Source of the DNA: an uncultured Flavobacteriaceae bacterium
Lineage (GTDB): Bacteria; Bacteroidota; Bacteroidia; Flavobacteriales; Flavobacteriaceae
Reading direction: 5' to 3'
Assembly (NCBI GenBank): GCA_947487895.1
Contig: CANKYF010000009.1
Location: 1-64,000 of the forward strand
DNA length: 64,000 nucleotides
In this document: in pieces, positions 53,843-55,789 of the stretch
Layout of the letters: each line of letters starts with the position of its first letter
Numbering within the stretch: the stretch's first letter is position 1
Made by a program: the position numbers and the translations under genes
Notes under the pieces: generated by a model
Databases searched by the model: none
What the model was told of the DNA's origin: nothing
What the model saw: the letters and a program-made list of their open reading frames with translations, nothing else

Positions 53843-55027
53843 ATGGCTGGCATCTACATACATATTCCCTTTTGCAAACAAGCATGTCATTATTGTGATT
53901 TTCATTTTTCAACCTCTTTAAAAAAGAAAGATGAACTAGTACAATGTTTGGTCAAAGAAATTGAGCTTAGAAAAACCGAACTACAAGGTAATACCATTGA
54001 AACCATTTATTTTGGTGGGGGCACACCATCTTTATTAAGTAGTGATGAATTGAAATTACTTATTGATGTAGTTTACAAAAACTTCTATGTTATTGAAAAC
54101 CCAGAAATCACATTAGAAGCAAACCCAGATGACCTAACTTCAGAAAAGATTTTAGAATTATCAGAATCCCCAGTCAATCGTTTAAGTATAGGTGTGCAAT
54201 CGTTTTTTGAAGATGATCTTAAAATGATGAATAGGGCTCATAATGCCGAAGAATCTAAAAATTGTCTATCAGTTGCTACTCAGTACTTTGATAATATTAC
54301 CATAGATTTAATTTACGGCATCCCAAAGATGTCTCTAGAAAAATGGTATCAAAATTTAGAAATGGCTTTTAGTTTTGGAGTGAACCATATATCTAGTTAC
54401 GCATTGACCGTTGAACCTAAAACAGCATTAGATAGTTTTATACAAAACGGAACATATCCACCTTTAGATGAAGCTTTAGCGTTAGAACACTTCAATCATT
54501 TAGTAAAAAGAACCGAAGAAGAAGGTTTTGTACACTATGAAATTTCCAATTTTGGGAAGCCTAATTATTTTTCAAAACACAATACAAGCTATTGGCATGG
54601 TAAATGGTATTTGGGTATTGGGCCATCTGCGCATTCGTTTTTAGGTGACCAACGTGGTTGGAACGTGTCTAATAATACAAAGTACATTAAAGCAATTCAA
54701 TGCGCAGAATTACCAATAACTATAGAACAGCTTTCAAAAAAAGATATGTTTAATGAGTATGTCATGACAGGGCTAAGAACCATTTGGGGTGTATCTTTTA
54801 ATAAGGTTGAAAAAGATTTTGGAGAAGAGTTTCTTAAGTATTTAAAGGAATCTTCCGAAAAGTATCTGAACGAAGACTTACTCGTCATTGCGAACAAAGT
54901 GAAGCAATCTTCTAAACAGGAAGGGATTACTTCGTCGATAACTCCTCGTAATGACAATGTATTAAAGACAACACAAAAAGGTAAGTTTTTAGCAGATGGA
55001 ATTGCTTCTGAGTTATTCATGATTTAG
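53843..55027 (+). CDS. hemW: HemW-like radical SAM heme chaperone with an inserted palindromic repeat
   Basis: 394 residues from the ATG at 53843 (MAGIYIHIPFCKQACHYC); an upstream TTG at 53831 is rejected. The SAM/iron-sulfur motif is Cys11-x3-Cys15-x2-Cys18, followed by IYFGGGTPSLL, VNRLSIGVQSF and HYEISNFGKPNYFSKHN. Near the C-terminus the normal end (...LLxI..LKTTxKGKFLADGIASELFMI) is split by LVIANKVKQSSKQEGITSSI and PRNDNV, which is the translation of the palindromic repeat at 54884-54955. HemW carries heme to its targets in the cytosol; whether the insert matters is unknown. Frame is kept. Confidence 0.93.
   Translation: MAGIYIHIPFCKQACHYCDFHFSTSLKKKDELVQCLVKEIELRKTELQGNTIETIYFGGGTPSLLSSDELKLLIDVVYKNFYVIENPEITLEANPDDLTSEKILELSESPVNRLSIGVQSFFEDDLKMMNRAHNAEESKNCLSVATQYFDNITIDLIYGIPKMSLEKWYQNLEMAFSFGVNHISSYALTVEPKTALDSFIQNGTYPPLDEALALEHFNHLVKRTEEEGFVHYEISNFGKPNYFSKHNTSYWHGKWYLGIGPSAHSFLGDQRGWNVSNNTKYIKAIQCAELPITIEQLSKKDMFNEYVMTGLRTIWGVSFNKVEKDFGEEFLKYLKESSEKYLNEDLLVIANKVKQSSKQEGITSSITPRNDNVLKTTQKGKFLADGIASELFMI
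54884..54955. repeat. Palindromic repeat inside the hemW coding frame (R4)
   Basis: Arms GTCATTGCGA (54884-54893) with TCGTAATGAC (54946-54955) and GAAGCAATC (54901-54909) with GATTACTTC (54925-54933) form a two-part hairpin. The element is 72 bases, 24 codons, so the frame is preserved. Confidence 0.85.
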
Positions 55028-55039
55028 TTATATTTGAGT

Positions 55040-55789
55040 ATGATCGCAACCATACAGTACAAGTCCAAGAAATTTCAAATAGATTTAACAGAACCAATAG
55101 ATATCTCAATACCAATAAGGGCATCAAAAGACAATGTGAATGCATGGTATATTGAGGAGCCTAAAATTGAACCTGCAACAGATAAAGAATGGGTAGCTAG
55201 TGTAAAAGAAGGGGCTTGTGTTAATTTTAATAACATAACATTTAATCCACACGCTCATGGAACACATACAGAATGTGTGGGTCATATCACAAAAGAAGTA
55301 CATTCTATAAATAAGAACTTAAAACAGTTTTTCTTTTTAGCAGAAGTTATTACGGTGGCGCCAGAAAAATTGAATGATGATTTTGTAATATCTAAAAAAC
55401 AATTACAATTTGCTATAGGTAATAAAAAAAGAGATGCTATAGTAATTAGAACATTGCCCAATACAACTGAGAAAATGAGTAGGCAATACTCAAATACTAA
55501 TCCGCCTTATTTGTTAGAAGAGGCCGCTATTTATTTAAGACAAAAAGGAGTTAAACACTTATTAATTGACTTGCCTAGTATAGATAAAGAAAAAGATGAA
55601 TGTTTATTATTGGCTCACAACGCATTTTGGAATACCAAGGGTATTACTAGAATGGATGCCACAATTACAGAATTCATTTATGTGCCAAACAAAGTAGCCG
55701 ATGGTATGTATGTATTAAATATTCAAATAGCACCTTTTGAGAATGATGCAACCCCAAGCAAACCCATTTTATATAAAATAATAGAATAA
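55040..55789 (+). CDS. Cyclase family protein (kynurenine formamidase-like)
   Basis: 249 residues from the ATG at 55040; a TTG at 55034 adds only two residues. The family metal motif HGTHTE lies in FNPHAHGTHTECVGHITKEV, with DAIVIRTLPN and GVKHLLIDLPSIDKEKDE following. Members hydrolyse N-formylkynurenine or related amides with a divalent metal. Follows hemW by 12 bases and precedes the DUF4230 gene by 3, so one operon. Confidence 0.85.
   Translation: MIATIQYKSKKFQIDLTEPIDISIPIRASKDNVNAWYIEEPKIEPATDKEWVASVKEGACVNFNNITFNPHAHGTHTECVGHITKEVHSINKNLKQFFFLAEVITVAPEKLNDDFVISKKQLQFAIGNKKRDAIVIRTLPNTTEKMSRQYSNTNPPYLLEEAAIYLRQKGVKHLLIDLPSIDKEKDECLLLAHNAFWNTKGITRMDATITEFIYVPNKVADGMYVLNIQIAPFENDATPSKPILYKIIE

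Follow-up and report, generated by a model that had tools for sequence, protein, structure and literature searches.

A dispersed palindromic repeat in frame within hemW of a flavobacterium and its recurrence at the same few loops in other genera

How does a palindrome come to lie in frame, and without a stop codon, near the end of hemW? The question is raised by one gene of the 64,000-nucleotide stretch of DNA analysed here (the window), which belongs to the genome of an uncultured Flavobacteriaceae bacterium (G000). The reading that we favour, and consider probable, is that a repeat landed in hemW and is read through as a loop, and that the same few turns and linkers of Flavobacteriaceae proteins have been hit repeatedly.

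The insert in hemW and its repeat family

The hemW frame opens with an ATG at 53843 and codes as far as 55024 (Table 1). An earlier note on this DNA had claimed a 72-base in-frame palindrome in this gene, encoding a foreign stretch after which the normal C-terminus resumes, and both statements are borne out: the arms pair, the element spans 24 codons, NVLKTTQKGKFLADGIASELFMI follows it, and element-free relatives are shorter exactly there. The foreign residues are absent from these relatives, and the repeat, far from being unique, is dispersed in the genome with two further in-frame copies.

Table 1. Features of hemW and its insert in the window
Feature	Coordinates	Strand	Remark
hemW (radical SAM heme chaperone), 394 aa and stop	53843..55027	+	TIGR00539, E 6e-83, exceeds cut-off
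Palindromic repeat, 72 nt = 24 codons, peptide VIANKVKQSSKQEGITSSITPRND, HemW residues 348-371	54884..54955	+	
Left terminal arm GTCATTGCGA; C at 54883 precedes it, so that the end reads CGTC	54884..54893	+	conserved across genomic copies
Central loop, 14 nt, one of the least conserved parts	54911..54924	+	
Right terminal arm TCGTAATGAC	54946..54955	+	
HemW native C-terminus NVLKTTQKGKFLADGIASELFMI, in frame again after the repeat	54956..55024	+	alignment with 9 relatives

The arms, 10 nt each, are complementary except for one G-T pair, so the palindrome is imperfect; a repeat finder with a minimum of 12 nt did not list them as a pair. The RNA fold of 54880-54959 reaches -20.6 kcal/mol, a value equalled by one of 200 dinucleotide shuffles (z -2.96). 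With at most one mismatch, CGTCATTGCGA occurs a single time in the window against 0.09 expected, and Rfam matched nothing in 54700-55150. At the protein level, the HemN_C match ends at residue 351 (profile position 55 of 67) and the TIGR00539 match at 354, as expected with a foreign stretch interrupting both. An AlphaFold2 model of HemW (10 sequences, mean pLDDT 78) has the insert flanked by strands 347-349 and 373-376, pLDDT falling below 50 over residues 352-369; the insert is thus predicted to be a floppy loop at a hairpin turn.

Searching G000 with the element gave 18 matches at E ≤ 10 and 14 at E < 0.1. The latter reduce to 12 distinct copies, since two matches are parts of one copy and another (C25:4366) is unlike the element when read. 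The copies share the consensus CGTCATTGCGAACGCAGTGAAGCAATCT - loop - AGATTACTTCGTCG..CCTCGTAATGACG; the exact two-part pattern occurs eight times in the genome and the same pattern reversed not at all. Three copies lie in frame within long frames, all in what we call the VIA reading frame: those of HemW, GltX and an MptB-like glycosyltransferase. In GltX (548 aa) the element is C-terminal, directly before the Pfam anticodon-binding match. The MptB-like mannosyltransferase (536 aa) has no Pfam match and NCBIfam matches under the cut-off, and its copy of 84 nt holds a second hairpin. One further copy (L009/L014) overlaps a long frame only upstream of the probable start of that frame, and no frame of at least 120 aa covers the element in the remaining copies.

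The ends of these copies tie the family to a described class of repetitive extragenic palindromes (REPs). Left ends in G000 read CGTC or TGTC, with one GGTC (L006), and right ends GACG or GACA. The element has the layout of a head-to-head dimer, GTCATTGC..GCAATCT - loop - AGATTAC..AATGAC, with the tags outside. In the centroid fold of the left hemW unit ATTGC pairs with GCAAT, forming a 5-bp stem with a 12-nt loop; the unit of L008 folds in another register, with 7 bp and a 4-nt loop. None of the four units folded takes the form of CGTC families 1-4, that is a stem of 8-9 bp, a loop of 4-5 nt and a CCA-like unpaired tail. Under the favoured explanation, the 72 bases are probably one member of this dispersed palindromic family, made of CGTC-tagged REP units placed head to head. 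As for the host, the HemW of G006, a genome of the same genus, is identical to that of Seonamhaeicola algicola (L057) across the 380 residues compared, so that, judged by this sequence, the genus is very probably Seonamhaeicola.

The same sites in other genomes

The HemW proteins of G002 and G003, which have no element, are 17 residues shorter at the insert position, reading LLALNTNNEKVLVAT and LLIIESKEQEILVTT, respectively; those of G011 and G023 likewise have none. A clear element occupies the same place in G001, G012 and G152, half an element in G082 and an eroded version in G004; in G006 a stretch just as long is found, whose origin is doubtful. In G005 and a metagenome genome (L075) a different peptide, SSDFDS..NCIEKL, sits at the same turn. 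Its DNA in G005 is a different palindrome, CTTCGAGTGATTTTGA..TCAAAATTGCATCGAGAAG, which is itself dispersed, with 7 matches in G005, 16 in G000, 9 in G001 and 15 in G012 (E ≤ 1, the weakest doubtful). G004 and G005 are sisters on the HemW tree with 98% support. On the 102-row version of this tree the six carriers of the VIA type need six changes and the two carriers of the other type need two, counted by parsimony, which here and below does not distinguish gain from loss, and with carrier labels set by hand; labelling as a carrier any HemW with KQS anywhere in the loop was rejected, as this also caught native residues of other genera. Between G000 and G001 the arms of the two copies agree at 0.93. 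A single old insertion into HemW, with later losses, is possible within the genus and would speak against the favoured explanation, given the eroded copy of G004 and the weak support in that part of the tree.

To what extent is this peculiar to HemW? A 24-position peptide profile (A4) found 61 places in 27 of 199 Flavobacteriaceae genomes; at 21 of them, spread over 16 genomes, the frame runs for 300 aa or more without a stop. These fall in PurL (7), the MptB-like glycosyltransferase (5), HemW (4), GltX (2), Mfd (2) and HsdM (1), so that all but one (20/21) belong to five genes. Family models were run for one PurL, two glycosyltransferases, the HemW of the window, both GltX, both Mfd and HsdM, and the others were named by homology. 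Since the profile was made from gene copies, one row being a hand-made composite, gene copies of other lengths are perhaps under-counted. An artefact of searching one frame or strand was considered and rejected: a reverse-frame profile (A5) found 64 places in the 199 genomes with one frame of at least 300 aa, against 21 of 61, in a comparison that favours the VIA frame to some degree, A4 deriving from gene copies and A5 being made by hand. That single frame (G109, 1073 aa) has the element upstream of the probable LeuS start.

In GltX, the element of G000 is matched by half an element at the same place in G068. The six congeners searched (G001-G006) all lack it, so the G000 copy is recent. Aligned with the closest solved structure, 6b1z, GltX gives two stretches that omit residues 391-425. 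The glycosyltransferase carries VIA-type inserts in G001, G002 and G005, none in G003, and other stretches in G004 and G006.

Several of these genes and genomes show further peculiarities. The glycosyltransferase of G001 (L393, a 574-aa frame) has a loop that looks like several palindrome-like peptides in series: VIANSVKQS..PRND, RRDSSLALRMT, LSGRAQSRP and again EIASSQVPRND. In the GltX of G000 (L367) a second insert of about 18 residues, HLITEDLEVTNNKVASSNLSHHNH, follows EDTD..GIPFDEGP and is absent from the eight relatives compared; its DNA holds the inverted repeats CTGAGG/CCTCAG and CTCGAA/TTCGAG, and its motif CTGAGNNTCTCGAAGTG is also found at the G000 loci L175 and L201. Tandem-like arrays occur in the fetched stretches L464 (G144:C1:2079550-2080750, seven copies) and L446 (G068:C78:42480-43110, three copies).

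The most frequent target, PurL, was followed up separately. The linker ahead of its glutaminase domain was read in 130 of the 199 genomes, best matches first (30 + 100 loci); a further 63 genomes have a PurL match and 6 have none. By eye, 21 of the 130 genomes hold repeat-derived in-frame linker peptides, a few of these and some others being doubtful. They comprise the VIA type (7), TSSD..RIEK (6), LSGRA (7) and LTPSPSPKERG (1), the last of which we take to be a repeat type. Counting motifs by regular expressions gave 26 of 130 genomes, with 15 matches in 326,577 bases elsewhere as compared with 11,187 linker bases; the count by eye is preferred because the expressions postdate the viewing of the linkers and some of their matches (G000, G017) seem to be due to chance. 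All five genomes tested for the LSGRA type show it dispersed, with 15-57 matches at E ≤ 0.01, among which some places count twice, once per strand. For the TSSD type, G189 gave 14 matches and G045, G194, G162 and G128 only two or three each, PurL included. Other palindromic repeats thus also fill at least two of the sites, the PurL linker and the HemW turn. In G101 (L310) the PurL linker exceeds the usual length by about 45 residues and looks like at least two LSGRA-type repeats joined in frame.

About 250 residues of PurL, the glutaminase domain among them, lie downstream of the element in the same frame, so a whole PurL requires that the element be translated. An AlphaFold2 model of the PurL fragment was unusable (mean pLDDT 42). 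One could suspect that assembly or annotation is at fault or that the gene is dead, the assembly of G000 being a draft of 46 contigs; we regard this as very improbable, since independently assembled genomes of many genera have the same type of in-frame insertion at the same place and HemW, GltX and PurL are otherwise full length and stop-free in G000 or the carriers.

In the TSSD type the PurL stems vary between genera yet pair (for example GATTCC/GGAATC and GATTCG/CGAATC). Together with the hemW arms, which still pair in a fold that beats its shuffles, such stems could speak for a repeat kept as a nucleic acid hairpin, serving mRNA stability, translation pausing at domain boundaries or protein binding, with the peptide incidental. 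However, a recent copy would be expected to pair its arms in any case, HemW (G004, G082) and GltX (G068) retain eroded copies or halves, and most relatives have no such repeat there; a role of this kind seems quite unlikely to us.

Age, length and origin of the copies

Were these sites filled once, or many times? A 130-row PurL tree asks for 18 changes to explain its 21 inserted rows and for seven to explain the seven VIA rows. The VIA rows also need seven changes in a 61-row tree, of which the starred branches force only four, and placing them in one clade is rejected there (AU p 5e-37). Taken over all types, the inserted rows show some clustering in the 61-row tree (11 changes for 16 rows); the label of uninserted rows likewise needs 11 changes, where shuffling gives 14.3 on average and a count as low in 8 of 500 shuffles. 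Some inheritance of the inserted state is therefore likely.

Third codon positions bear on the age of the copies. Between intact HemW pairs their identity is 0.79-0.96 inside the element and 0.49-0.53 in the rest of the gene, and across 21 PurL pairs it averages 0.79 (0.67-1.00) inside and 0.54 outside; for the eroded G004 HemW copy it is 0.50-0.54. On this measure, intact copies appear to be younger than the divergence of their genes, or else constancy is maintained at the DNA level. Because identity is so much higher within intact elements than outside them, repeated recent gain fits best, and gain is favoured all the more as different repeats share one site.

The opposite view is that each gene received one ancient insertion, inherited widely and often lost, whose palindrome has been held constant by selection or gene conversion. 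It would account for carriers of a gene using the same site, for the clustering of inserted PurL rows in the 61-row tree, for the eroded yet recognisable element in the HemW of G004 and for the similarity of the G000 and G001 arms. Yet VIA-type carriers are scattered over the trees, different palindromes occupy one site across genera and even in the sisters G004 and G005, the GltX copy of G000 has no counterpart in the six congeners searched, and intact elements are far less diverged at third positions than their genes. We consider a single ancient insertion per gene unlikely.

Copies in genes also differ from the others in length. Both ends were recognised (at most 3 mismatches each) in 22 of the 23 measured gene copies, all but the HemW copy of G004; 20 of the 22 are exactly 72 nt long, the exceptions being the glycosyltransferase copies of G005 (75 nt) and G000 (84 nt), and all 22 are stop-free and a multiple of three. 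The other copies number 67 (68 with both ends, at most 2 mismatches each, minus the 84-nt glycosyltransferase copy); they were taken from loci that show no long open frame in the searched reading frame, a choice made by frame and not by gene annotation, and a few of them (L425, L010) are doubtful as copies. Two of the 67 are 72 nt long and 14 a multiple of three. Fisher's test of 72-nt copies (18/20 vs 2/67) gives 2e-14, a comparison in which the tandem arrays of G144 and G068 are non-independent and the 24-position profile favours 72-nt gene copies. Comparing 17 gene copies with intergenic ones, the nearest neighbour was variously an intergenic copy, the same gene elsewhere or another gene.

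From the near-fixed length, the single open frame (VIA..KQS..PRND) and the hydrophilic peptide, one might see in the 72-nt form a lineage of repeats suited to residing in proteins, whose spread between genes and genera into a fixed set of permissive loops is in part targeted and not merely tolerated; we hold this to be rather unlikely. Under the favoured explanation of repeated insertion, a mobile palindrome would have inserted into hemW and been kept there, its 24 codons containing no stop and the site being an exposed, length-variable turn of the C-terminal domain. Ribosomes would read through the repeat, giving HemW a floppy loop of 24 residues. Survivors would be only stop-free copies of 3n bases at tolerant turns, eroding slowly afterwards as in G004, and the recurrent targets would be the inter-domain linker of PurL, the hairpin turn of HemW, a loop of the MptB-like glycosyltransferase, GltX and Mfd. 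We infer that the protein is made with its loop and that the loop is neutral or nearly so.

The repeat would presumably be mobilised by a transposase acting in trans. In this context, REP-associated tyrosine transposases (RAYTs) were searched with Pfam PF01797 (Y1_Tnp) in 18 genomes, 11 of which gave matches. At E ≤ 0.001 there was none in the in-frame carriers G166, G184 and G106, nor in G131, which has other copies, and at the 16 RAYT loci scanned, of 30 fetched, no exact VIA-type motif lies within about 1.5 kb. In these genomes and at these loci RAYTs show no link with the repeat, and the idea of a RAYT mobiliser was dropped. G000 has a single RAYT-like gene (L346, G000:C8:140878-141105), a 204-aa frame with 23.4 bits to Y1_Tnp; its fetched flanks hold no exact VIA-type motif.

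The interest of the system lies in its repetition: in these free-living bacteria a small set of loops has taken up palindromes, alike or different, in different genera, and the intact copies seem younger than their genes. So many replicate events make it possible to study the entry of new peptide segments into conserved enzymes, the protein sites that tolerate them and the means by which the repeats move.

Relation to known translated and tagged palindromes

Nothing in the open-access literature, among the matches listed, was recognised as a report of translated palindromes of this kind in Bacteroidota. The kind itself is already known, from the Rickettsia palindromic elements (RPE) and from intragenic CGTC-tagged REPs; the occurrence in Bacteroidota is apparently new within that same literature. 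A 2025 paper on RepRanger includes Flavobacterium genomes in a table, and the words 'intragenic' and 'in-frame' are absent from its main text (PMC12306157).

CGTC-tagged REPs were described by Di Nocera et al. in 2013 with Bacteroidetes among their hosts and in-frame intragenic copies in several other species (PMC3733652); the earlier note had overlooked this record. The repeat studied here shares with them the CGTC or TGTC tag on the outside, a stem starting with AT, head-to-head dimers and a mostly intergenic distribution with some copies in frame within genes. It differs from their families 1-4 in the predicted shape of the left hemW unit, 5 bp with a 12-nt loop as against 8-9 bp with 4-5 nt. 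The parts of that paper drawn on here name no Bacteroidetes gene with an intragenic CGTC-tagged REP. They do describe recB of X. campestris and X. oryzae, orthologous genes in which different REPs sit at about one site, as here; that case concerns two species of one genus, whereas here one linker is filled in many genera by several repeat families. PARCELs are similar in that palindromic DNA encodes a protein repeat, but, as far as their description is drawn on here, they form tandem arrays of 25-residue repeats within proteins, unlike the single enzyme inserts discussed above (PMC2996958).

Rickettsia and Wolbachia are the best-known hosts of protein-coding palindromes; in them, on the account used here, common descent and insertion hot spots could not be separated (PMC3767692). 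For RPE-4, RPE-6 and RPE-7, which share an ATGAC motif, lie in solvent-exposed parts of proteins and behave similarly at shared loci, that account deduced a common insertion of old date, leaving hot spots undecided. The comparison with Rickettsia made in the earlier note is apt; that note, well supported in its reading of the element, did not see that other genera carry the insertion at the same loops or that further palindrome families use them as well. As in Rickettsia, the repeat studied here is both in frame and dispersed, with its genes read from sequence alone; in both systems dispersed ATGAC palindromes lie in frame within housekeeping genes, tRNA synthetases included, and orthologs may carry different groups of elements at one locus (PMC3767692). 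The likeness to RPE-4, RPE-6 and RPE-7 is one of description, the ATGAC motif being the one shared sequence feature noted. What sets the present case apart from the Rickettsia elements, as they are portrayed there, is its setting in free-living Bacteroidota, the nearly fixed 72-nt form of its genic copies and a pattern across genera that points to recent independent gain.
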